NCBI GenBank assembly: GCA_947172645.1
Contig: CAMWBY010000001.1
Location: 124,001-188,000 of the forward strand
Reading direction: 5' to 3'
Length of the DNA: 64,000 bases
From: an uncultured Lachnospiraceae bacterium
GTDB lineage: Bacteria; Bacillota; Clostridia; Lachnospirales; Lachnospiraceae
Both the position numbers and the translations under genes were made by a program. Below are positions 6,434 to 38,430 of this stretch, in pieces (positions within the stretch are counted from its first letter, which is position 1; every line of letters begins with the position of its first letter). The notes under the pieces are model-generated. The model made no database searches. It worked only from the letters and a program-made list of their open reading frames with translations, and was not told the origin of the DNA.

Positions 6434-8473
6434 ATGAAACCAGAATGGAAAGATTTTGTAGGCGGCAAGTGGGACAAAGAAGTGAATGTCCGTGACTTCA
6501 TCCAGAGAAACTATCATCCTTACGATGGTGACGAGTCCTTCTTAGCCGAAGCAACACAGAGCACAAAAGATTTATGGGCAAGGGTTTTGGAGTTACAGAA
6601 AGAAGAACGCGAAGCGGGCGGCGTACTGGATATGGATACGAAGGTTGTATCTACCATCACATCCCATGGCCCCGGCTATTTGGACAAGGACAAAGAGACA
6701 ATCGTAGGCTTCCAGACAGATAAGCCTTTCAAGCGTTCTTTACAGCCTTACGGCGGTATCAGAATGGCAGAGAAAGCATGCGCTGACAATGGTTACGAGG
6801 TTGACCCTGAAATCAGCGAGTTCTTCTCCACACACAGGAAGACACACAACGCAGGCTGTTTCGATGCATACAATGCCGAGATGAGAGCTTGCCGTTCTTC
6901 CCACATCATCACAGGTCTTCCGGATGCATACGGACGTGGACGTATCATCGGCGACTACAGACGTGTTGCTCTGTACGGTATCGACAGACTGATTGAGGAC
7001 AAACAGGCACAGAAAGATTCCACAGGCCGCGTGATGACAGACGACGTAATCCGTCTTCGTGAAGAGCTTTCCGAGCAGATGGTTGCACTGAAGCTGATGA
7101 AGGAAATGGCTGCTTCTTATGGCTGTGATATTTCCAAACCTGCTTCTAACGTACAGGAAGCAATCCAGTGGACATACTTCGGATATCTGTGTTCCGTAAA
7201 AGAGCAGAACGGCGCTGCTATGTCCCTTGGACGTACATCTACCTTCCTTGACATTTATGCTGAGAGAGACCTTGCTAACGGTACGTTTACAGAGCAGCAG
7301 ATTCAGGAGTTTGTTGACCACTTCATCATGAAGTTAAGACTGATTAAATTTGCCCGTACACCTGAGTACAACCAGATTTTCGCTGGCGATCCGGTATGGG
7401 TAACAGAGTCCCTTGGCGGTGTTGGTGTCGATGGCCGTCCGATGGTAACCAAGATGAGCTTCCGTTACCTGCACACATTGACCAACTTAGGACCTTCTCC
7501 GGAGCCGAACCTGACAGTTCTTTGGTCCACAAGGCTTCCTGAGAACTGGAAGAAATACTGTGCGAAGATGTCCATCCAGACTTCTTCTATCCAGTATGAG
7601 AACGACGACTTGATGAGAGTGACACATGGCGATGATTATGGTATTGCATGCTGCGTATCTTCCATGGTTATCGGTAAAGAAATGCAGTTCTTCGGTGCAC
7701 GTGCTAACGTTGCTAAGTGTCTGTTATATGCATTAAACGGTGGTATCGACGAAGTTACCAAGAAACAGGTTGGACCGAAATACCGTCCTGTTGTAGGCGA
7801 TGTACTTGATTACGACGATGTTATGGATAAATTTATCGACATGTTAGAGTGGCAGGCAGACGTGTATGTAAATACACTGAACATCATCCACTATATGCAT
7901 GATAAATACTGCTATGAGAGAGCAGAGATGGCTCTTCATGACAGAGATGTTAAGCGTTACTTCGCAACAGGTGTTGCAGGTCTGTCTATCGTGGCTGACT
8001 CCTTATCCGCTATCAAATATGCTAAGGTTGAGCCAATCAGAGATGAGGACGGCATTATTGTTGACTTCAAGACAACCGGCGACTTCCCGAAATATGGTAA
8101 CGACGATGACCGCGTAGACGAGATTGCACAGGAAATCGTGCACAAGTTCATGACGGCAATCAGAAGACACCACACCTACAGGAACGGTGTTCCTACAACA
8201 TCCATCCTTACCATTACTTCCAACGTAACTTATGGTAAGGCTACAGGTAACACACCTGACGGACGTAAGAAAGGCCAGCCTTTCGCTCCTGGCGCTAACC
8301 CGATGCATGGTCGCGATACCCACGGTGCAGTAGCTTCCCTCTCTTCCGTTTCCAAGCTTCCGTTCAATGATGCACAGGATGGTATCTCCAATACCTTCAC
8401 TATCATTCCGGGCGCTCTTGGTAAAGAAGACCAGGTATTTGCAGGCGATATTGAATTAGACCTGAATAAATGA
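6434..8473 (+). CDS. pflB: Pyruvate formate-lyase catalytic body lacking its glycyl-radical domain
   Basis: This enzyme converts pyruvate and CoA to acetyl-CoA and formate by radical chemistry. The protein is 679 residues from ATG 6434, which has AGGAGG 11 bases upstream; the earlier in-frame TTG has no such site. The active-site pair Cys406-Cys407 is present in [20 protein letters not shown]. The protein stops after [15 protein letters not shown] and a short tail, just where the standard ~750-760-residue enzyme would continue into the C-terminal glycyl-radical domain. That domain is encoded by a separate gene at 9218-9457. Codon use looks optimised for high expression. The activase lies at 9720. 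Confidence 0.95.
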
Positions 8474-8578
8474 TAATTTGTTTCACAAATTATCATTGCG
8501 AGATTCGCTTCGCGAACTCGGTATAAGCTGAAAAAGCCTTTGATGCAAATTATCATTGCGAGATTCGCTTCGCGAACT
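8472..8578 (+). repeat. 3' hairpin and 33-bp direct repeat behind pflB
   Basis: GATAATTTGT and ACAAATTATC form a hairpin that begins at the pflB stop codon. An identical 33-bp block occurs at 8486-8518 and 8546-8578 (60-base period), and each copy contains the mini-hairpin TTCGC-TTC-GCGAA. These could stabilise the 3' end of the pflB message or tune read-through. Confidence 0.7.
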
Positions 8579-8601
8579 TGTTATAAACCAGAAAAAATAG
8601 T

Positions 8602-8639
8602 GGTCTGGCGCGGATATTCTGTGCCAGACCGGAAAAAAT
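8602..8639 (+). terminator. Terminator-like hairpin between pflB and the small genes
   Basis: GGTCTGGC and GCCAGACC form a perfect 8-bp stem with a 13-base loop, followed by an A-rich rather than T-rich stretch. It may be a weak terminator or an mRNA processing or stability element. It would lower expression of the two small genes relative to pflB. Confidence 0.45.
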
Positions 8640-8734
8640 CCATATATGAAGGATTAAAGTAAAACCACCTGTTTCTGCGGCATATCTTATATAGATGGCA
8701 ATGCGGCGGTCAGTGATGAAAGGAAGATGAATAT

Positions 8735-8965
8735 ATGGATAACAAACAGATGATTGATGATTTTATCAAGATGATGGATTCCGGGATGGCACAGGGCGTC
8801 GGACATGTGAATGTGGATGTCGCCGATAAGGTGGATGATTCCCCCGACGTTAATTCCGAAGAAGTCCGCGTCAATGTACAGACAATGGGATGTACGGATT
8901 GTTCCCGCACCCCATTAGCGTGCAGTGTTCCAACCCTCCAAGACGGCTTGGATGATTTTAGGTAA
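8735..8965 (+). CDS. Small GrcA-like protein with a cysteine-rich tail in place of the glycyl-radical loop
   Basis: I do not recognise this 76-residue protein as a named family. Residues 6-29 (MIDDFIKMMDSGMAQGVGHVNVDV) match the pattern of the first part of the separate glycyl-radical protein encoded at 9218: a short amphipathic helix, a Gly turn, then [GH]H-[LV]NV-[ND]V. The conserved RVSGYAV loop is absent. The tail instead has three cysteines, C53, C56 and C63, in MGCTDCSRTPLAC, and ends PTLQDGLDDFR. An AAGGAAG site precedes ATG 8735. Its place between the two halves of pyruvate formate-lyase suggests a paralogue with a changed role, perhaps docking, repair or regulation, which is inference. 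Confidence 0.6.
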   Translation: MDNKQMIDDFIKMMDSGMAQGVGHVNVDVADKVDDSPDVNSEEVRVNVQTMGCTDCSRTPLACSVPTLQDGLDDFR

Positions 8966-9062
8966 GCATCGAGCCATGCGGATTTATGGCAAAACAGCCA
9001 GAAGAAAGCTTGCTTTCGGATGGATGCTTTGACAGAAATCCATAGGGCGACAGCCCGTTAAA

Positions 9063-9178
9063 CGAGTGAGTGTTAGTTGCGAAGCAACGGGCTCACGAGT
9101 GTGCATGGCGGGCTTGCAGCTTAGCCCATAGCGAGTGAGTGCTAGTTGCGAAGCAACGGGCTCACAAGTCTGCATGGC
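9063..9178. repeat. Two near-identical ~46-bp palindromic repeats
   Basis: Copies at about 9063-9108 and 9132-9178 (69-base period) share CGAGTGAGTG, the hairpin GTTGC-GAA-GCAAC, then GGGCTCAC and TGCATGG, differing at a few positions. Similar GTTGC-AAA-GCAAC units occur at about 22760, so this may be a dispersed intergenic family. With only two copies it is not a CRISPR array. Confidence 0.7.
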
Positions 9179-9217
9179 TCATAGCAATATAAATATAAAT
9201 TATAGGAGGACAATACA

Positions 9218-9457
9218 ATGGCAGCAAATGCTCAGGTAGATAACTTAGTATCTTTATTAGATGGTTATGCAACAAAGGGTGGTCATCACCTCAACGTAAA
9301 CGTGCTCAACAGAGATACCTTACTGGATGCTCAGAAACATCCTGAGAATTATCCTCAGTTGACAATCCGTGTATCCGGTTACGCAGTTAACTTCATCAAG
9401 TTAACACCGGAACAGCAGGCAGACGTTATCTCCCGTACATTCCACGAGTCAGTATAA
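9218..9457 (+). CDS. grcA: Stand-alone glycyl-radical domain of pyruvate formate-lyase
   Basis: This 79-residue protein carries the part missing from the 6434 gene: [18 protein letters not shown], then [18 protein letters not shown] with the radical-bearing Gly54, then the [13 protein letters not shown] tail. It corresponds to the last ~75 residues of classic PflB and to the YfiD/GrcA spare-part proteins. Here there is no full-length partner in the cluster, so it is probably an obligatory subunit that docks into the catalytic body and is activated by the PflA encoded downstream. A strong AGGAGG precedes ATG 9218. A good terminator follows. Confidence 0.9.
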
Positions 9458-9520
9458 TTTCTGCGGTGATGGTCGAGGGCAGTTCTTTTGTCTTAAACCT
9501 TGAATGTCAGTGATACAATG

Positions 9521-9570
9521 AACCCCGTCCTCTAACTTTAAACGGTTACGGACGGGGTTTACTTTTTTTC
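9521..9570 (+). terminator. Terminator after the glycyl-radical gene
   Basis: CCCCGTCC and GGACGGGG pair around a 19-base loop, and a T-rich run (ACTTTTTTTC) follows. Confidence 0.8.
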
Positions 9571-9719
9571 TTGGCAAAGACACTGGTTTTTTCCTTGTGC
9601 ACAGGTTATACTATATCTTACAAAGTTCCTGTTAAATAAGGCATATTGTTTGCCCGATTTGCCGGAACTATGCAAACAATCCAGTATTTCACTATCATAA
9701 AGAAAGAAGGTTTTCACAT

Positions 9720-10490
9720 ATGCAAGGACGTATTCATTCACTAGAGAGTTTCGGCACCGTCGACGGACCAGGTGTCAGATTTGTTGTCTTCGTACAAGGC
9801 TGCCCTATGCGGTGCGCATATTGCCACAATCCCGACACATGGGAGATGAACGGCGGCACTCTGATGGAGCCGGAAGAAATCATTGAGCAGTATGAGCGCA
9901 ACATAAGCTTCTACAAAGGAGGCGGCATTACGGTGACAGGCGGAGAACCACTGATGCAGGTTGATTTCCTCTTAGACCTCTTTTCTTTGGCTAAGAAGAA
10001 GAATATCCACACGTGCATCGATTCTTCCGGCATCGCATATAAGAAGAATGCCAATCCTGAATGGCTTGCCAAACTTGACCGTCTGATGGAGATGACTGAC
10101 CTTGTCATGCTTGATATTAAACATATCGACCCGGAAAAACACAAGGAACTGACTTCACAGCCTAACGACGGCATTCTTGCCTTCGCGGAATATCTGAACG
10201 AAAAGCACGTTGATATGTGGATTCGTCACGTTATCGTGCCAGGCATCACAGACGATGACAAGTATCTGTATCAGCTTGGTTACTTTATCGGCGCATTTAC
10301 CAACCTGAAAGCCCTGGACGCGCTCCCTTATCATACCATGGGAAAACCCAAATACGAGAAATTAGGCATGGCGTATAAGCTGGACGGTGTAGAGCCAATG
10401 GATAAGAACAAATTGATTGAAAAGAAACAGGTTATCCTGGACGGCATACGCAAACGCCGTGAGGAATTGGGGTTGCACGCAACATCATAG
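9720..10490 (+). CDS. pflA: Pyruvate formate-lyase activating enzyme (radical SAM)
   Basis: This 256-residue cytoplasmic radical SAM enzyme uses SAM and a [4Fe-4S] cluster to abstract hydrogen from the glycine of pyruvate formate-lyase. The cluster motif is C28-xxx-C32-xx-C35 in QGCPMRCAYCHNP, preceded by the typical FGTVDGPGVRFVVF. The SAM-binding TGGEP follows at about residue 79. The length is normal for the family. It lies downstream of the separate glycyl-radical gene but behind a terminator, so it may have its own promoter. The site before ATG 9720 (GAAGG) is only moderate. Confidence 0.95.
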   Translation: MQGRIHSLESFGTVDGPGVRFVVFVQGCPMRCAYCHNPDTWEMNGGTLMEPEEIIEQYERNISFYKGGGITVTGGEPLMQVDFLLDLFSLAKKKNIHTCIDSSGIAYKKNANPEWLAKLDRLMEMTDLVMLDIKHIDPEKHKELTSQPNDGILAFAEYLNEKHVDMWIRHVIVPGITDDDKYLYQLGYFIGAFTNLKALDALPYHTMGKPKYEKLGMAYKLDGVEPMDKNKLIEKKQVILDGIRKRREELGLHATS

Positions 10491-30572: not shown

Positions 30573-31391
30573 TTAACGCTTCAGATTATTGGCCACTTCC
30601 ATCATCGCATCGGAAGTCGTGATTGCCTTGGAGTTCATCTCATACGCACGCTGTGTGACAATCATATTAACCATCTCATTCGCCACCTGCACATTGGAAC
30701 CTTCCAGATATCCCTGTACAATCCTGCTCTTCTCCACGTCCGGCGCGGTATCCTCATTGAGCGCACGGCCGCTGGCATCCGTCACTGCAAACTGCGTATT
30801 GCCAACCCTCTTCAAACCGCCCGGGTTGCTGAACTGGTATGTCCCAATCTTCCTGCCGATAGGCTGCGGGTTGTTCCTGTCATCGGGATAGCATATCTGC
30901 CCGTCCTCCGTGATAGAAAGACGGCTTGCAATATAAGTACGGGGCAGGGAAAGCGTACGTCCCTCAGAATCCAATACCGGAAGACCGTCCGCATTAGTCA
31001 GCGTCATGCCGCCATTGGCGCCCAACGCCCATGTAAAGTCACCGTTTCTCGTATAGTATGTAACGCCGTCCTCCCCGCGCACACCGAAGAATCCGACTCC
31101 TTCAATTGCAAAAGCGGTATCACTGTCAGAGTCCAACAAACTTCCTTGTCTGAAAATAGAATTGATGGAAGATGTGCGGACGCCCAACCCTACCTGCGAG
31201 GATGTAGGCTTCGGGTCGCCGTTCGCCGTGGTAGTAACTGTCTGTAGATTCTGGTACAGAAGTGATTTAAACTGTGCCACCTGGGTCTTATACCCCACTG
31301 AGTTTACATTTGCCAGATTATTGGCAATCGTATCCAAATTCGTCTGCTGTGCATTCATGCCGGTTGCTGCCGACCATAAACTTCTAACCAT
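30573..31391 (-). CDS. flgG: Flagellar rod protein FlgG/FlhP
   Basis: This 272-residue protein of the distal flagellar rod is exported through the flagellar secretion system. The N-terminal motif MVRSLWSAATGMNAQQTNLD with TIANNLANVNSVGYK, and the C-terminal EGSNVQVANEMVNMIVTQRAYEMNSKAI, are typical rod and hook signatures. The order mbl-flhO-flhP in B. subtilis supports the alternative name flhP. It lies 24 bases behind the related flgF/flhO gene. Confidence 0.93.
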   Translation of the reverse strand: MVRSLWSAATGMNAQQTNLDTIANNLANVNSVGYKTQVAQFKSLLYQNLQTVTTTANGDPKPTSSQVGLGVRTSSINSIFRQGSLLDSDSDTAFAIEGVGFFGVRGEDGVTYYTRNGDFTWALGANGGMTLTNADGLPVLDSEGRTLSLPRTYIASRLSITEDGQICYPDDRNNPQPIGRKIGTYQFSNPGGLKRVGNTQFAVTDASGRALNEDTAPDVEKSRIVQGYLEGSNVQVANEMVNMIVTQRAYEMNSKAITTSDAMMEVANNLKR

Positions 31392-31415
31392 ATCCTAGCG
31401 CCTCCTATTATTTAG

Positions 31416-32273
31416 CTATTTAATCCTGCCCAACTGGTTTACCGCAGTGTCAAGCGTTTCGTCAAACGTAGTGATTACCTTTTGATTACTGTCATATTTT
31501 CTCTGGATGGCAATCATATTCACCATCTCCGAGACAATTGATATATTAGACATCTCCAGGAATCCCGAATAAATCTCCGATTCCGACTCTATCTCCTCCG
31601 CGCCGTCCACCGGCTCGAAGTAATTCTCCCCGTAACGATGCAGATAATCATAATTCTCGAAATCTGTCAAACCGATTGTAGCCACCTCGGCGCCGTCCTG
31701 GGTAATCACCCCGGTACGGTCAATACTTACCGGCAATGCGGTGTTCATCCTAATCCGCCGTCCGTTCGTATCCAACACGAAATCACCGTCCTGTGTCACC
31801 AGATACCCCTGACGGTCCATGGTGAAATTACCGTCCCTTGTATATTTCGTGAATGTCTCATCGGCTTTATTCGTATATTGTACTGCAAAAAATCCTCTGT
31901 CAGAAATTGCCAAATCAAATGTATTGCCGGTCTCTTTAATGGGGCCCTCAGAATAGTCCACATAGTTCTCGCCGGTCTTGACGCCCAGATTCATGCCTAC
32001 CCTTCTGACACGCCTCTGCATATAATTCTCATTCGCTTCGTTATTCACTTCCGCTTCATCAATCGCCTTGGGAGTGCTGATTAATTTAGGCAGATTCCCC
32101 GCCTCGGACAAATCTTTAATCTTATAAGCAAGCACACTGTCAAAGGCCTGGCTTGTGGCGCCTTCCTTCTTAAAACCAATGGTATCTGCATTGGCCAGGT
32201 TGTTGGTCATGACATCCATTCTGTGCTGTTCGTTAATCATCCCCGTATACGCTGTATACAAACCCTTAAGCAT
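31416..32273 (-). CDS. flhO: Flagellar hook-basal body protein FlgF/FlhO
   Basis: This 285-residue rod-family protein has the N-terminal LYTAYTGMINEQHRMDVMTN with NNLANADTIGFK and the C-terminal EMSNISIVSEMVNMIAIQRK. It is a paralogue of the next gene. The pair directly downstream of an mreB-type gene matches B. subtilis mbl-flhO-flhP. It is part of the proximal rod, or helps assemble it. The start is 18 bases after mbl. Confidence 0.92.
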   Translation of the reverse strand: MLKGLYTAYTGMINEQHRMDVMTNNLANADTIGFKKEGATSQAFDSVLAYKIKDLSEAGNLPKLISTPKAIDEAEVNNEANENYMQRRVRRVGMNLGVKTGENYVDYSEGPIKETGNTFDLAISDRGFFAVQYTNKADETFTKYTRDGNFTMDRQGYLVTQDGDFVLDTNGRRIRMNTALPVSIDRTGVITQDGAEVATIGLTDFENYDYLHRYGENYFEPVDGAEEIESESEIYSGFLEMSNISIVSEMVNMIAIQRKYDSNQKVITTFDETLDTAVNQLGRIK

Positions 32274-32291: not shown

Positions 32292-33284
32292 TTAATCCTC
32301 GCGGTATCCCGCTAAGAACTCTACATACTTACCCGTCCCCACGGCTACCGCCGTCATAGGGTCTTCCGCTGTCATCGTATTGATGCCAGTCTTCGCAGCA
32401 ATCAGGTCTTCTAAACCTCGCAGCAGGCTCCCTCCTCCTGTCAGCACAATTCCCCTGTCTGCAATATCAGCCGCAAGCTCCGGCGGCGTCTTCTCTAAAA
32501 CGCTGTGGATTGTCTCCACAATCTGTACGGTCGTCTCATGCAACGCTTCCTCTGTCTCCTCAGATGAAACTTTGACTGTTCGCGGAAGGCCAGTAACCAG
32601 ATTACGTCCCCTCACATCCATGTAATCCACTTCCGGTCTCTTGTAAGCCGAACCGATTTTAATCTTCAAATCCTCCGCAGTTCTCTCACCAATCAAAAGA
32701 TTGTGTTTCTTACGCATATAGCGCACGATTGCCTCGTCGAAATCGTCTCCCGCAATCTTAATGGAAGCGCTCACCACCGTGCCGCCAAGCGAGATAACCG
32801 CAATATCGGAAGTACCGCCGCCGATATCTACAATCATGTTGCCGCAGGGCTTAGAAATATCTATGCCTGCGCCGATGGCTGCCGCGATAGGCTCTTCAAT
32901 GATGGACACTTCTCTTGCCCCTGCCTGGTACGTGGCGTCCTCTACCGCTTTCTTCTCCACTTCCGTGACGCCGCTGGGCACGCACACCGCTATGCGGGGT
33001 TTACGGAATGTCTTCTTCCCCAGAGCTTTCTGGATGAAATATTTCATCATCTTCTCTGTAACCTGGTAATCCGAAATAACGCCTTGCCGCAGCGGCCTTA
33101 CCGCCACAATATTTCCCGGCGTCCTTCCGAGCATCAGTCTGGCGTCCTCGCCGATTGCCTTAATTTTACTCGTATCTCTATCAAAAGCTACAACAGAGGG
33201 CTCTTTCAATACGACGCCTTTACCTCTGATATAAACAAGTATGCTGGCCGTTCCCAAATCAATTCCGATATCTGTGTACTGCAT
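32292..33284 (-). CDS. mbl: MreB-family cell-shape protein, Mbl type
   Basis: This 330-residue actin-like ATPase forms membrane-bound filaments that guide side-wall synthesis. It has the phosphate motifs DIGIDLGTASILVY and VDIGGGTSDIAVISLGG and the adenosine motif GIVLTGGGSLLRGL. The neighbourhood (flhO and flhP downstream) supports Mbl rather than MreB of the mreBCD operon. The length is typical. Confidence 0.93.
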   Translation of the reverse strand: MQYTDIGIDLGTASILVYIRGKGVVLKEPSVVAFDRDTSKIKAIGEDARLMLGRTPGNIVAVRPLRQGVISDYQVTEKMMKYFIQKALGKKTFRKPRIAVCVPSGVTEVEKKAVEDATYQAGAREVSIIEEPIAAAIGAGIDISKPCGNMIVDIGGGTSDIAVISLGGTVVSASIKIAGDDFDEAIVRYMRKKHNLLIGERTAEDLKIKIGSAYKRPEVDYMDVRGRNLVTGLPRTVKVSSEETEEALHETTVQIVETIHSVLEKTPPELAADIADRGIVLTGGGSLLRGLEDLIAAKTGINTMTAEDPMTAVAVGTGKYVEFLAGYRED

Positions 33285-33686: not shown

Positions 33687-34274
33687 TCAAATCCGTATGT
33701 CGATTGGCTTATATATGTCGTCTTCCGCCTCAGTTAATTGTGCCAATGTTGCTTCCGTCAGCCCGTCCGTCTCCTCAGTCAATTCCTCTGCCATTTCAGA
33801 CAGCTCTTCTTCCACTGTCTCCTCCAACTCCTCCTGTATCTTCTCGACCTCGTCCAACACTTCCTCCAATACGCCGTCGTTTTCGTCTGTTCCCATAGCT
33901 TCCTCGGCCATCTCTTCCAGTCTTTCCTCCGGCGTCTTCGGCTCCATCTTCTCAGCTGCCTCTGCAATTTTCTCTCCCATTTCCCGGGACTCATCCATAA
34001 TATGCATCATCTGCTCGCTGTTATAGGCAATTTTCGCTGCCATAATCTCGTCTTCATAGGAACGGAACATATCAAGCTTCTTCGCAATCTCCTCCACAGT
34101 GTCGCATTTTATGTTTTTCAAATTCTCTTTCTGCTGCTCATAGAACGCCACCTTACTGTCGCGCTCTTCCTGCCGCTCCATTTTCTCCTGTGTGCTTTTC
34201 AGCCCACGGTTTCCATACATCATTCCGCTGCCAAAAACAGACCTGTTGATTCCTTGTATATTTATATTCATCAT
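33687..34274 (-). CDS. Unknown acidic coiled-coil protein
   Basis: I do not recognise this 195-residue protein. It begins MMNINIQGINRSVFGSGMMY, an N-terminus reminiscent of exported or surface-secreted small proteins. The rest is almost entirely charged helix: a basic first third (EKMERQEERDSKVAFYEQQK) and a very acidic, Glu-rich second half likely to form coiled coils. It has no signal peptide. It lies on the minus strand between mbl and the invertible recombinase cassette. If that cassette inverts, the recombinase would read toward this gene. Confidence 0.7.
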   Translation of the reverse strand: MMNINIQGINRSVFGSGMMYGNRGLKSTQEKMERQEERDSKVAFYEQQKENLKNIKCDTVEEIAKKLDMFRSYEDEIMAAKIAYNSEQMMHIMDESREMGEKIAEAAEKMEPKTPEERLEEMAEEAMGTDENDGVLEEVLDEVEKIQEELEETVEEELSEMAEELTEETDGLTEATLAQLTEAEDDIYKPIDIRI

Positions 34275-34524
34275 CCCGCCTCCTGTTCCAACCAGTTTAT
34301 GCTGCTTCTTGCCGCTGTCAACTGAAAAACCTTACGGCAGCGTCTACTCCTGTCATTTTTATAACATTGTCATAAAGTATATCGTCTCAAGCGCTCGGCC
34401 CATAAAGACAATGCCCTCGCGTTTCATGTCATTTTTAGAACGTTTCGCACCCGAAGCTGCGCATCATTGTACAAAGGGCTTTATTTCATCGGACGTACTT
34501 GCACTTTCTTATGAAAGAAAAAAT
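34275..34524. other. Non-coding stretch before the invertible cassette
   Basis: No convincing gene is visible. This stretch must hold the promoter or leader of the minus-strand gene ending at 33687, unless that gene is driven by the minus-strand promoter inside the cassette at 34609-34637. Confidence 0.5.
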
Positions 34525-34553
34525 CTTTCGTAAAATGCCTGGTTTTACGAAAG
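34525..34553. repeat. Left recombination site of the invertible cassette
   Basis: CTTTCGTAAAA, core TGCCTGG, TTTTACGAAAG: the two arms are perfect inverted copies of each other. No T-run follows, so this is not a normal terminator. An extra single arm TTTTACGAAAG lies at 34707-34717. Confidence 0.75.
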
Positions 34554-34583
34554 ACCGAACCGGAAATAAAAAGATTTCCGTCA

Positions 34584-34637
34584 AATAATATTGTTCTGAA
34601 CTTATTGTATAATACTCTTTTTTTGTGGAAAGCGCAA
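34584..34637. promoter_or_regulatory. Overlapping divergent promoters inside the cassette
   Basis: On the plus strand TATAAT (34608-34613) could serve the recombinase, with only a poor -35. On the minus strand TTGCGC-17-TATTAT (34609-34637) reads left, across the left site, toward the gene ending at 33687. After inversion the minus-strand promoter would point at the LCP gene instead. Confidence 0.5.
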
Positions 34638-34766
34638 TATTTTTCAATATAAAATCTAAACGGAGAATTACTTTTCCAAATGTGGGACATCATTACCGTT
34701 CCCGGATTTTACGAAAGGTTATTTTTCGCTAAAAATATCACCATACAAAAGAAGGGAGCATGAATT

Positions 34767-35825
34767 ATGAGAAACATGCCAAACAACATTTTCAGAACAA
34801 AGGACCATTTAATGAAAGAACCCAACCGAAAGTCTACGCCTGCCCCTGGCAAATGTACGCTGGCAGACGCAGCATACCTATGGATGCAGTCACAGAAGCC
34901 TTATTGGAAGCCAGGAACTTGCTCCGTATACAGCCATTTGCTGACAAAATATATTCTTCCATACTGGGGCGGTACAAGAATTAGCAAAATCACGGAAAAG
35001 TCTATGGACGACTTCGCCTCCTATCTGGCATCGCGCCCCGACGGACACTGTCTGTCCAGAACTTACATATCGCAAATTTGCGCTACCGTCCGGAGGATTA
35101 TGACATATATGAATAAAAAATATCATTACGAGGTTACCGTCCCAGGCAATCCCGTCACCAAAGGGCACCCCCGCCAGGTTATCCTTCCTGATACCCGTTC
35201 CCTTATCATATTGGAGAAGTACTTATCCGACCACTGCGAACAGGACACATGCCTCGGCATATTGATTGCTTTCCATACAGGTATACGCATCGGAGAATTG
35301 AGCGCACTGACATGGAAGGATATTAATATAGAAGAAGAACTTATCTATATCCGCAAGAACCTTTTGCGTGTCAAAGATAAGGATGCATACCTTTCCCCTG
35401 AAAAAAGCGTGACCCAAATTATAGAACAATCCCCAAAAACTTCTGATTCATCCAGGATTATCCCGATTCCATCAAAATTAATCCCCTTTTTACAAAAATA
35501 TAAGAAAGAAAATGAACTATATGTAGTCAGCGGTGTCAAAAATCCCTGGGCCGAACCGCGCACTATCCAATATCGTTTTAAAAATATCCTGCAAAAATGT
35601 GGGGTGAATTACTTCAACTTCCATATGCTTCGCCATGCTTTCGCCACGAGATGCGTCGCCATGGGATTGGACATAAAAAGTCTGAGTGAAATACTAGGGC
35701 ACAGCAATATCCAGATTACGCTAAGTCTGTATGTGCATTCAACCACGCAGCAAAAAAAGCAGCTTATGCAACAATATAGTTCCTTTTTCCAAAACGTTTC
35801 CCAAGACGCCTCCTTTTTTTCGTAA
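34767..35825 (+). CDS. Tyrosine recombinase (phage-integrase family)
   Basis: This is a 352-residue site-specific recombinase. It has an N-terminal SAM-like DNA-binding domain (about residues 30-125) and a catalytic domain with R174 in TGIRIGELSALTW, H286 and R289 in FHMLRHAFAT, H312 in LGHSNIQ and the nucleophile Y322 in LSLYVHS. All catalytic residues are present. GAAGGGAG precedes ATG 34767. Its stop codon lies inside the first arm of the right-hand recombination site. No excisionase or cargo is linked, and it is probably the enzyme that flips its own cassette. Relatives act as integrases or phase-variation invertases. Confidence 0.9.
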   Translation: MRNMPNNIFRTKDHLMKEPNRKSTPAPGKCTLADAAYLWMQSQKPYWKPGTCSVYSHLLTKYILPYWGGTRISKITEKSMDDFASYLASRPDGHCLSRTYISQICATVRRIMTYMNKKYHYEVTVPGNPVTKGHPRQVILPDTRSLIILEKYLSDHCEQDTCLGILIAFHTGIRIGELSALTWKDINIEEELIYIRKNLLRVKDKDAYLSPEKSVTQIIEQSPKTSDSSRIIPIPSKLIPFLQKYKKENELYVVSGVKNPWAEPRTIQYRFKNILQKCGVNYFNFHMLRHAFATRCVAMGLDIKSLSEILGHSNIQITLSLYVHSTTQQKKQLMQQYSSFFQNVSQDASFFS

Positions 35826-35845
35826 AACCAGGCATTTTGCGAAAG
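35817..35845. repeat. Right recombination site of the invertible cassette
   Basis: TTTTCGTAAAA, core CCAGGCA, TTTTGCGAAAG: the same plan as the left site in opposite orientation, with an imperfect outer arm. The recombinase stop codon TAA is at 35823-35825 inside the inner arm, so it travels with the gene on inversion. Confidence 0.75.
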
Positions 35846-35866: not shown

Positions 35867-36862
35867 ATGCACAATAAGAAGAAAAAACTTTTTGTGGCGC
35901 TTAGTATTGTCATCACCTTAATCATCCTGCTTGTAAGCGCACTTGAAATCACCAAAGCAGTTGGAAAAAGGCGCCTGCTAAGCAGGGTGAATCTATCTCC
36001 TGGACGTGTCAAATACCAGAATAAGCTATATGAATACAACAATGACGTCATCACATTTTTGGTAATGGGCATCGATAAGGGCAAAGAAGCCTTCGAGCCC
36101 TGGGAAACCGACGATGGAAACAGCGGGCAGGCGGACGCCCTATTTCTTGCAGTCCTTGACACAAACAAGAAGACCATCAAGGTCATCGGAATCAACAGAA
36201 ACACTATGACGGACATTGATTTTTATGACGAAGAAAGTAATTATCTCGCCACGTTTCCCGCTCAGATTGCTTTGCAGTACGCCTACGGAAATAACCAGGA
36301 AGAAAGCTGTACATATCAATTGGAAACCGTAAAAAAGCTATTCTACAACCTTCCCATCCATGGATATGCAGCAGTGAACATCGATGCGGTTCCCGTCATC
36401 AACGATACGGTAGGCGGCGTAGATGTGGAAGTATTGGAAGACTTAACGCATGCGGATGAAACTCTCGTAAAAGGCAGTCATGTTCATTTAATGGGCAAAA
36501 GCGCCTACTGGTATGTGAAATATAGAGACATTAACTTATTTTCTTCTGTTGATATGCGAACACACCGCCAAGCGCAATACCTCGATAGCTTCATCGATGC
36601 CGCCAAGCATTCCGTCAAAAGCAATCCTTTTGTGTCACTCCGCCTTTACCGGGAAATCACGCCCCAAATGGCAACCGATTTATCGCTCCCGGAAGCATTT
36701 TACCTAGCAACCGTCTTACCACAATACCAGTTCGACGAGCAAAGTTTCTACAAGGTGACCGGCATGACGGTGATGGGGGATGAATACGAAGAATTTTATC
36801 CCGACGAAGCCGCCTTGTTCGAATTAATCTTAGATGTTTTTTATCGGGAAGGCAACGACTAA
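35867..36862 (+). CDS. LCP-family (LytR-CpsA-Psr) cell-wall polymer transferase
   Basis: This 331-residue membrane-anchored protein starts at ATG 35867 (AGGAGA upstream). It has a short basic cytoplasmic N-terminus, one membrane helix (LFVALSIVITLIILLVSAL) and an extracellular LCP domain with VMGIDKG, GQADALFLAVLD, the Arg of GINRNTMTDI, VGGVDVEVLEDL and the RTHRQAQYL helix. LCP enzymes attach teichoic-acid-like or capsular polymers to peptidoglycan. The canonical PRDT motif is NRNT here. It begins 21 bases after the invertible site and heads a three-gene run with a pseudo-sortase and a secreted protein. Confidence 0.88.
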   Translation: MHNKKKKLFVALSIVITLIILLVSALEITKAVGKRRLLSRVNLSPGRVKYQNKLYEYNNDVITFLVMGIDKGKEAFEPWETDDGNSGQADALFLAVLDTNKKTIKVIGINRNTMTDIDFYDEESNYLATFPAQIALQYAYGNNQEESCTYQLETVKKLFYNLPIHGYAAVNIDAVPVINDTVGGVDVEVLEDLTHADETLVKGSHVHLMGKSAYWYVKYRDINLFSSVDMRTHRQAQYLDSFIDAAKHSVKSNPFVSLRLYREITPQMATDLSLPEAFYLATVLPQYQFDEQSFYKVTGMTVMGDEYEEFYPDEAALFELILDVFYREGND

Positions 36863-36886: not shown

Positions 36887-37690
36887 ATGAGACATACAGC
36901 ATGTAATAAAACAAAGATACCGCTGTCCTTCCTGGCCCTCTGCCTGGCAGGTATTTTCACGGGCTGCTCCGGGAACGAAGAGCCAAGCCAGACAACCGCT
37001 TTTCAGACAGAACCCCAATTTGAGACTGGCAGCGGCACACAAGAGGCGACGGGAATCTCCTCGGAGAGCGCGCAGGATTCTTCTGTAAATTTTGAAATAC
37101 TCCAAGAAGAAAACCCAGATATTTTTGCCTGGCTTTATATCCCCGATACAGGAATTGACTGTCCTGTGCTACAGAGTGGGCAGGGAGACGACTTCTACAA
37201 AAATCACAATGCGCTCGGTGAAGAAGACCCGTCAGGCGCTGTATACATTGAGCTTGCCAACTTAAAAAGTATGTGCGATTTTAACACAGTTCTGCATGGC
37301 AATGCCGACACAGAACAAAACGCCCCTTTTACGCAACTATACCGTTTTTCAGACCCTTTGTTCTTTGACAGCCATGAAACCATCTATTTGTACTTAGACG
37401 GGAATGTCCTTACATATGAAATTTTCGCCGCTTACGAAAGGGAAAACACCAGCCTTATCCGCAGCTATGACTTTACATACACCTCTGGCTGCCAAGAATT
37501 TCTGGATGACTTATACGGCACACGGGAAATGAGCATGAATCTGCGAGAGGGATGGGATTTTATCAACCCCTACCATTTCCTTATCACGCTGACCACTCAA
37601 AGAGCGGAGAGCCCAGACAGACAGTTTGTTGTAGTCGCCGTCTTAACGCAGGACGCTGCCGGAACCATCGGCCGGACTGTCGCAGAATAA
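36887..37690 (+). CDS. Sortase-B-fold lipoprotein lacking catalytic Cys and His
   Basis: This 267-residue exported protein has a signal peptide ending FTGC (Cys27, a near-lipobox), a Ser/Thr/Glu-rich linker, then a class B sortase domain: NPDIFAWLYIPDTGIDCPVL, KNHNALGEEDPSGAVYIE, NTVLHGNAD, and FLITLTTQRAESPDRQFVVV. In active enzymes the second motif has YGH and the third TLSTC or TLTTC. Here the His position is Asn139 (a His lies two residues earlier) and the Cys position is Gln238, while Arg245 remains. It is therefore probably not a transpeptidase and may act as a binding or scaffold protein. It follows the LCP gene by 24 bases. Confidence 0.85.
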   Translation: MRHTACNKTKIPLSFLALCLAGIFTGCSGNEEPSQTTAFQTEPQFETGSGTQEATGISSESAQDSSVNFEILQEENPDIFAWLYIPDTGIDCPVLQSGQGDDFYKNHNALGEEDPSGAVYIELANLKSMCDFNTVLHGNADTEQNAPFTQLYRFSDPLFFDSHETIYLYLDGNVLTYEIFAAYERENTSLIRSYDFTYTSGCQEFLDDLYGTREMSMNLREGWDFINPYHFLITLTTQRAESPDRQFVVVAVLTQDAAGTIGRTVAE

Positions 37691-37755: not shown

Positions 37756-38430
37756 TTGAAAAAATTCAGTAAGTTAGTTTCATTGTCACTGGCAGGCATT
37801 ATGTTAGTTTCTATGCCCGCTATGGCAGCGCCCAGCCCTAAGAAACTCTCTGCGGAGCAGATTGAAGAGCAGGCTGCCAGAGCTGTAGAGAATGCAAAGG
37901 CAGAGGAGCAGGCAAGAATCGTTGCTGTAGAAGCAAAAGCAAGTGAAGCAAAAGCTCTCGCTGCAGAAGCTTCCGGCATCCCGATGGCTGTCTCCGTTGC
38001 TGCCGAAGGCGAAGGAAAAACTGTCGGCGAATTTATCAACAACGCTGTTACAGAATTACCCGGGCTTCCGGACGCTACACCGCTTGCACAGGGCGGACAC
38101 GTAATTATCAACGGCGCTCCCAGTAACCAGACCTTCTCTGTACTGAAACCTGTCGCAGCAGCAGTTACATCTGCAAAATCATACGCTTCCACCCTTGGCG
38201 GCAACGTATTGAATGTTGCAAAGATTGATGCATCTGTAGGCGGATTCAACACAGCAACCGTTAACTTCTATATGCCCGGCGTAGCTGCTGGAAACAATAT
38301 CCAGGTTTACCAGTTAACTGACGGACAGTGGAGCAGCGTAAACGTAGCCGAAGTAAGGGCTGACCATGTGGTTGTTGATATGACATCCCTTGGAACCATC
38401 GCTTTTATCGAAGTACCTGCTGCACAGTAA
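37756..38430 (+). CDS. Secreted coiled-coil protein of unknown function
   Basis: This 224-residue protein starts at TTG 37756 behind AAAGGAGG. A clear signal peptide (LVSLSLAGIMLVSMPAMAA) precedes an Ala/Glu/Lys-rich coiled coil (about residues 32-70) and a C-terminal region rich in beta-type residues (VNFYMPGVAAGNNIQVYQL, then GTIAFIEV). I know no family for it. It has no LPxTG-like signal or membrane anchor at the C-terminus. Codon choice resembles that of pflB, suggesting strong expression. It closes the LCP / pseudo-sortase group, and a strong terminator follows. Confidence 0.8.
   Translation: MKKFSKLVSLSLAGIMLVSMPAMAAPSPKKLSAEQIEEQAARAVENAKAEEQARIVAVEAKASEAKALAAEASGIPMAVSVAAEGEGKTVGEFINNAVTELPGLPDATPLAQGGHVIINGAPSNQTFSVLKPVAAAVTSAKSYASTLGGNVLNVAKIDASVGGFNTATVNFYMPGVAAGNNIQVYQLTDGQWSSVNVAEVRADHVVVDMTSLGTIAFIEVPAAQ

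Follow-up and report, generated by a model that had tools for sequence, protein, structure and literature searches.

The window, by which we mean the whole 64-kb stretch of Lachnospiraceae DNA analysed here, appears to carry a promoter cassette that inverts itself and stands before an LCP-sortase operon; it would belong to a family of such cassettes in the Lachnospiraceae. We put the probability of this reading at roughly 0.8. The predicted reaction is inversion, and comparing the sequences of the family lends it strong support. We infer from these sequences that the window's own copy inverts, that its weak promoter copy is active, and which of the two orientations is ON.

The cassette is compact. 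As the first-pass annotation of this DNA had proposed, two sites with an 11-7-11 plan flank one tyrosine recombinase gene. The U site, on the 5′ side of the recombinase (34525-34553), reads CTTTCGTAAAA TGCCTGG TTTTACGAAAG and is a perfect palindrome, and the D site, on the 3′ side (35817-35845), reads TTTTCGTAAAA CCAGGCA TTTTGCGAAAG and has two arm mismatches; neither is assigned to a strand. The asymmetric cores had been described as reverse complements, which they are, and the two sites are mutual 28-nt inverted repeats. They are the sole matches in the 64-kb window at up to three mismatches, where 100 shuffles give an expectation of 0. The enclosed segment of ~1.32 kb holds a single gene, that of the tyrosine recombinase, whose stop codon falls within the D site. 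The D site ends at 35845 and the ATG of the LCP gene is at 35867, so the spacing of 21 bases given in the annotation is also right. An internal half-site, TTTTACGAAAG (34707-34717, no strand assigned), lies between the U site and the recombinase gene; the region 34702-34717 is identical to the right part of the U site at 14 of 16 bases. The annotation had further suggested looking for the site elsewhere. In the 46 contigs of the same genome the arm pattern (up to two mismatches) matches the U site, the D site, one site with a different core on contig C13 and, weakly, a place on contig C6, and no further copy of a site with the TGCCTGG core was found. An Rfam search of the window gave no match.

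The recombinase (352 aa; 34767-35825, plus strand) matches PF00589 and PF14659. Its catalytic residues had been called intact, and the R-K-H-R-H-Y set is indeed found in the Phage_integrase domain: R174, K224, H286, R289, H312 and Y322, which we take to be the catalytic set of a tyrosine recombinase, are all present, and each is shared by 53-54 of 54 sequences in an alignment. An extra N-terminal domain, which resembles arm-binding domains, is found in most of ten aligned relatives. The window recombinase and that of L103 lack most of this domain, as does L106 in the reading frame chosen. Solved structural relatives are XerD, XerA and the Int protein chain 6emy, which we take to be the Int of Tn1549. 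Relatives at an E-value of 1e-35 or better occur in 39 of the 77 genomes of the genus, and the closest named relatives in a scan of genome contigs are mostly labelled Lachnospiraceae. A tree of 120 recombinases places all 64 that bear sites in a clade of 79, the base of which has a support of 0.015; a clade of 77 in the same tree, with 63 site-bearing recombinases, has a support of 0.82.

Inversion is predicted because the cores are mirrored, and this mirroring can be followed through the family, whose sites have the plan 10/11-7-10/11. When sites were sought by their arms alone, with the core ignored, both were found in 53 of 122 loci, and all 7 core bases were mirrored in 53/53. Pairings of sites across loci, which served as a control, gave fully mirrored cores in 30 of 2756. 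Direct core repeats, the arrangement (direct attL/attR around a larger element) by which a phage or ICE module would be recognised, occur in none of the 53 two-site loci, where 0-4 of 7 bases match directly. In a pool of 58 loci, which leaves out a locus that would have contributed core mismatches (L189), the paired sites differ at 0 of 406 core positions versus 83 of 1160 arm positions (Fisher p = 9e-12). Forty-five distinct cores are found in this pool. Strand exchange over a 7-bp overlap requires identical cores, which would be why they are identical within each locus. We know of no other cause that would require this.

Besides L189, the pool of 58 omits 12 second copies (L136-L145, L160 and L163), L126 as the twin of L125, L108 (register off by one), and L157 and L186, which like L189 have no arm motif or are a coding duplication. 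The test on 122 loci kept L157, L186 and L189 in its input and is thus independent of these three exclusions. A set of 55 recombinase loci (the window, 20 loci and 34 loci) includes 42 with a fully mirrored site pair and 13 without an acceptable pair. Pair scores are 37-47 except for L025 (31), and shuffled flanks reach at most 31. Three of the 13 pairless loci are cut by contig ends (L102, L112 and L033) and two show a single site (L111 and L034). Scanning genome contigs yielded 80 loci, of which 12 are second copies. A mirrored pair with a score of at least 36 is present in 20 of the 27 new near loci (up to L174), and seven have none (L147, L153, L155, L156, L159, L165 and L172, with L155 and L159 at 48-50% identity). 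None of 41 more distant integrases (L175-L215) has a site pair with the arm motif; two reach a pair score of 36, both without that motif.

A further line of evidence comes from cores that have changed between related loci. The locus of the window is found again in genome G078 (L107), with Mbl and rod genes on one side and LCP, sortase and UvrA on the other. The two recombinases are 58% identical over 307 residues and the cores are TGCCTGG versus TATCTTC, each mirrored in its own locus. In L148 and L149 (tttccag and tttctag) one core base differs, and it is changed in both sites. Single core-base differences, again mirrored in both sites, separate L158 from L164 and L166 from L167, and within each of these three pairs the flanking genes are held in common. 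Ten genomes carry two complete cassettes with differing cores (G061, G062, G072, G084, G086, G094, G099, Eisenbergiella tayi DSM 26961, CE91-St56 and JAMPGS), and different cores would keep the cassettes of one cell independent. In G097 one core is common to the twin copies L125 and L126.

The promoter of the cassette was sought with a scan for TTGACA/TATAAT-like elements that covered 250 bp on the inner side of each site and also the outer side, with 8.4 or more as a high score. A high-scoring promoter inside the U site, pointing outward from the recombinase, is present in 34 of 58 loci; the five other contexts have one in 2/58, 0/58, 2/58, 0/56 and 1/58. Promoters are thus enriched neither towards the recombinase (2/58 loci) nor outside the D site (1/58). 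The full consensus TTGACA-17-TATAAT occurs in 14 of the 58 loci, and the best match lies 7-186 bp from the site, in 30/58 at 44-69 bp. In the window a putative outward promoter, P_out (34609-34637, minus strand), has a -35 element TTGCGC (34637-34632), a spacer of 17 and a -10 element TATTAT (34614-34609); it lies 56 bp inside the U site and points leftward. With a score of 7.4 it is under the mark of 8.4, and 77 of 2000 shuffles score at least as high at that position, so that P_out is a weak candidate, supported by the family. The outward elements of close relatives are at 57 bp with a score of 7.3 (L103) and at 62 bp with a score of 8.4 (L107). A single promoter driving both recombinase and LCP was our first idea, and it was dropped as there is no enrichment in that direction.

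The U site also looks like a terminator. On the minus strand the stem of its palindrome (14 pairs) is followed by an outside T-run (T6), giving a terminator-like structure at 34512-34556 with -13.4 kcal/mol and a z-score of -4.2. A terminator scan of the region found 2 such sites versus 1.8 in shuffles, and it listed no plus-strand terminator at the D site. Across 48 hand-listed loci (30 envelope, 13 + 5 TnpB-type), a T-run stands outside the non-target site in 18/48 versus outside the target site in 5/48 (p = 0.0035). This asymmetry comes from the envelope loci (U side 10/30 versus D side 0/30); it does not come from TnpB loci with a D-side target (7/13 versus 5/13). That the arms might be conserved only as part of a terminator had been named beforehand as an alternative. 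It is partly true and agrees with inversion: the U site with its T-run is terminator-like, and we retain a terminator role for this site. As a full explanation, with both palindromes merely terminators that resemble each other by chance, it leaves the mirrored cores unexplained: the 7-nt loops are mirrored in 53/53 loci, and a terminator loop needs no partner to match. We rejected the terminator-only reading and give it next to no weight.

The mechanism that we propose for the self-inverting cassette is as follows. The recombinase would bind the palindromic arms of both sites, cut where the 7-bp core borders on the arms, and exchange strands. With mirrored cores, the outcome would be inversion of the segment that holds the recombinase's own gene. 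Transcription out of the cassette would start at a sigma-A-type promoter close to the U site, on its inner side. As assembled, this promoter would point leftward, its transcript would stop at the hairpin and T-run of the U site, and the LCP-sortase operon would be without a promoter of its own (OFF). In the inverted orientation the promoter end would abut the LCP gene and drive the operon (ON). The recombinase would stay intact after inversion and could flip the segment back. We regard the assembled orientation as probably OFF because the family promoter points away from the recombinase and from LCP; it was the missing enrichment of inward promoters that reversed our ON/OFF reading. Since no promoter is enriched outside the D site either, we expect the operon to be transcribed from a promoter in the cassette or by way of the cassette.

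The predicted target operon begins with an LCP (LytR-CpsA-Psr) glycopolymer transferase (35867-36862, plus strand). The 21-bp gap between the D site and its ATG contains a ribosome-binding-like AGGAGAG, and in both the window and L107 this gap holds little beyond such a stretch. The second gene encodes a class B sortase-like protein (36887-37690, plus strand), named from synteny and from a TIGR03064 match below the cut-off, and the third a secreted-looking protein of 224 aa (37756-38430, plus strand) that is often kept behind LCP and sortase. On the other side of the cassette an operon on the minus strand begins with a 195-aa protein (33687-34274) and includes MreB/Mbl (32292-33284) and flagellar rod genes (30573-32273), the latter two syntenic in L107. 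We do not count this operon as a target because the U site is terminator-like. Relatives of the LCP protein at an E-value of 1e-20 were found in 19 of the 61 genomes searched, all within the genus, and in 19 LCP regions examined a piece of the recombinase stands beside LCP only in L065 (G032), as a remnant.

An envelope locus had been proposed as the target, and the family agrees with this. Many of the related cassettes stand before genes for surface polysaccharides. We classed a locus as envelope when its first outward gene belongs to one of five envelope clusters. In 34/34 envelope loci, which are related and so are not 34 independent observations, that gene starts 0-113 bp outside the D site, and in none is it at the U site; four of the 34 (L102, L111, L033 and L147) have one site only, the far side being set by a fixed distance. 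In nine loci (L105 at 7412-9932, L104, L027-L030 and L113-L115) a pair of proteins of ~220-270 aa and 590-640 aa heads the operon. The pair of L105 has no Pfam or NCBIfam match, and the next gene after it encodes a family 2 glycosyltransferase.

A second class of targets consists of TnpB-like genes and an uncharacterised protein of 450-850 aa. In the 20 loci of this type, a count that includes L126, the twin of L125, the target is found 6 times on the U side and 14 times on the D side. On the promoter side these genes start 2-38 bp from the site in 4/6 loci. The locus L034 can be compared with L117, L122 and L123: both flanks are homologous (up to 89% protein identity), the recombinase is reversed, and a T-run is still beside the flank to which it belongs. 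L034 is the best of the inverted loci, but only one site is seen in it and it may be locked.

The TnpB-like proteins themselves (434-492 aa) stand beside cassettes of the outer family in L032, L035, L036, L037, L041, L117, L119, L122, L123, L125, L126, L128, L129, L130 and L132. Pfam Cas12f1-like_TNB matched in 5/5 tested (L032, L035, L036, L037 and L041). At what we assume to be the position of the first RuvC Asp this residue is absent in 15/15 aligned proteins, and the Cys pairs are conserved. To judge from their sequences the proteins look nuclease-dead, and they are perhaps akin to RNA-guided repressors. Another protein family, of ~450-490 or 822-856 aa, also recurs beside cassettes (L039:8891-11461, L040:4796-7318, L042:3691-6216 and L130:9495-12011). 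Three of its members have no Pfam match at E-values up to 0.1, and in L039, L040 and L042 the family member is followed by proteins of 446-474 and ~260 aa.

The orientation of the envelope loci is what speaks most against a switch that flips freely, unless flipping is strongly biased or selected: every one of the 34 classified envelope loci is assembled the same way round, with the promoter away from the target. This is as expected of a useful state, and it fits the opposite logic, under which the assembled orientation would be ON through a recombinase transcript running through the D site into LCP, and the outward promoter would serve something else. Recombinase and LCP are also co-directional, with 21 bp from site to ATG and no plus-strand terminator listed at the D site. 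However, promoters towards the recombinase occur in 2/58 loci versus 34/58 for the outward ones, the T-runs of envelope loci stand outside U (10/30) and never outside D (0/30), and in 4/6 loci with TnpB-type genes at the promoter end these genes begin 2-38 bp away from the site. We think this opposite logic unlikely, and prefer the assembled orientation as the OFF state of an inverting promoter.

Could the inverted sites instead be the ends of a mobile element, moved by the recombinase, with inversion only incidental? Related cassettes stand beside many different genes, and the recombinase has relatives on plasmids. Four of eight plasmid or phage-record loci have a pair scoring at least 36 (L297, L299, L302 and L303), two of them plasmid loci: L299, from a Vescimonas fastidiosa plasmid, has an outward promoter of 8.7 versus 6.6 inward, and L297, from an Enterococcus faecalis plasmid, has 8.1 outward and 8.4 inward. 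Among the eight loci inspected no site pair was found in L300 and L301 (enterococcal plasmids, beside SecA2 and WxL genes) or in L298 from Bacteroides; L296 from Ruminococcus has one full site and one half-site. In G097 the near-identical cassettes L125 and L126 lie on two contigs, each with two downstream genes that are 97-100% identical and with upstream flanks that differ, as if the unit had recently been copied, which also speaks for mobility. RIT elements, as described in one source, have a comparable outline, with three tyrosine recombinases in ~3.5 kb, ends that carry a palindrome and a 28-9 bp inverted repeat, and presence in copies (PMC3414803). They share with the window a tyrosine recombinase and palindromic inverted repeats at the flanks; in contrast, the window cassette has one recombinase, and the excerpted description of RIT elements mentions no promoter switch (PMC3414803). 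Mirrored cores, however, give inversion and not excision, direct core repeats are absent in 53 loci, the polarity to envelope operons is one and the same in 34/34, a recombinase remnant lies directly before LCP in G032, and L107 keeps the locus. A mobile element therefore seems to us very improbable as an explanation of the inverted sites.

A phage origin of the close family was likewise considered and rejected. A viral scan gave 21 relatives of the recombinase, all at 32% identity or less, and phage records reach at most 36% among the matches listed. L303, an unverified ‘phage’ clone, does carry a mirrored site pair.

Some contigs break at the sites. A scan of 77 genomes with the site pattern found matches in 18. 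Five contigs end exactly at a site: in G099 C10 at its last base and C36 and C78 at their first, and in G094 C47 at its first and C128 at its last. Two more sites are close to an end, at 3 bp in C13 of the window's own genome and at 35 bp in C59 of G099, and single sites in G002, G068 and G071 are away from contig ends. C36 and C10 of G099 are the two flanks of a locus that is intact in G094 (L110), with four upstream proteins at 80-90% identity and one at 56%, and a downstream glycosyltransferase at 95%. Another contig end in G099 overlaps others by 54-55 bases, and from this one contig end the k of the assembly was probably 55. As this exceeds the 27-bp repeat, we would not expect the assembly to break at the repeat by itself, but it would break where the sequence can continue in two ways. 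Such breaks could also arise from a mixture of strains that carry other cassettes. The site on C13 (L265) lies in the last 32 bases of the contig, has the core TTATTAG and precedes genes for an epimerase, a UDP-galactopyranose mutase and a glycosyltransferase, a polysaccharide operon. It may mark a second switch in this genome, with its cassette absent from the assembly.

The first-pass annotation had named inversion as the product of recombination. The mirrored cores in 53/53 loci, core changes between orthologous loci that appear in both sites, homologous TnpB-type loci found both ways round and the contig breaks at sites in G094 and G099 all point the same way. The cassette in this species might nevertheless have decayed or be locked, having lost the ability to flip. 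The two arm mismatches of the D site, the weak promoter copy and the largely missing N-terminal domain would fit this, as would G032, which retains a remnant only, and L034 with its one site. Against it, the reading frame and the catalytic residues are intact, the cores of the window are still mirrored though unlike those of the orthologous L107, and two perfect sites are present in L103, a close relative whose N-terminal domain is likewise mostly missing. Decay is thus a rather unlikely account, and we keep to a working inverter.

How does the cassette compare with known systems? In Cre/lox and XerCD/dif, palindromic arms surround a short asymmetric core, and the identity and direction of the cores decide the product. 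The sites described here share this plan, unlike these systems in that family cores vary by locus (45 in 58) and that we predict a natural switch working by inversion. Integrases of the Tn1549/Tn916 type are related through the Int chain 6emy, whereas the arm-motif site pair was found in none of the 41 distant integrases (L175-L215). In the Hin segment an outward promoter serves an operon for a surface structure. As in the Hin/H segment of Salmonella flagellar phase variation, the recombinase gene of the window lies inside the segment predicted to invert, and so do those of relatives with two sites. Hin is given as the example of a recombinase within its own invertible segment (PMC5903667). 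The cassette would work in the manner of Hin; but Hin is a serine recombinase, and the window enzyme, being of the tyrosine type, falls outside the Hin family. The cassette also has sites of the 10/11-7-10/11 type with cores private to the locus. No second antigen gene as in the Hin system was found at the cassette.

Closer in enzyme type are fimS with FimB-FimE and RecV of C. difficile (flagellar, cwpV), in which, according to paper abstracts and the same source, a tyrosine recombinase inverts a short regulatory segment between inverted repeats and turns surface traits ON or OFF, RecV acting on several sites elsewhere in the genome (PMC5903667). A tyrosine recombinase with a short regulatory segment between inverted repeats is what we predict here as well, but the window cassette contains its enzyme, with one recombinase, one cassette and one core. 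The fim recombinase genes lie outside fimS. The invertons that PhaseFinder detected in gut bacteria are, in the excerpts of their description, segments next to surface genes that can invert; one group of them, number 139, with 32/33 members from Clostridia, is linked to a nearby group of tyrosine recombinases (PMC11892184). The invertases are there termed nearby and generally non-regulatable, whereas in the window the invertase is contained in the cassette and not merely nearby (PMC11892184). Group 139 may overlap the cassette family. The PhaseFinder search is said to have a length limit, which may explain missed segments of this kind. In the literature searched, part of it in excerpts, we found no description of an invertible promoter segment that contains its own recombinase of the tyrosine type. 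Within that literature, what would be new here is a self-contained, tyrosine-type version of the known principle of promoter inversion.

A broader reading, for which we see somewhat better than even odds, is that these cassettes form a widespread, unnamed Bacillota family of portable promoter-inverters, each with its own tyrosine recombinase, an outward promoter and a private 7-bp core that stays the same in both sites and changes fast between loci. The cassettes of one cell would flip independently, and would phase-vary capsule, LCP/sortase and glycosyltransferase operons as well as nuclease-dead TnpB-like proteins. The Lachnospiraceae are common gut bacteria, and in the literature searched their phase variation is little described. 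If our reading is true, many of them decide on the expression of surface polysaccharides by compact one-gene switches. The dozens of natural core variants, maybe mutually exclusive, would then be a testable natural set of orthogonal inverters, and the cassettes would let one ask how cores change while both copies must stay identical.
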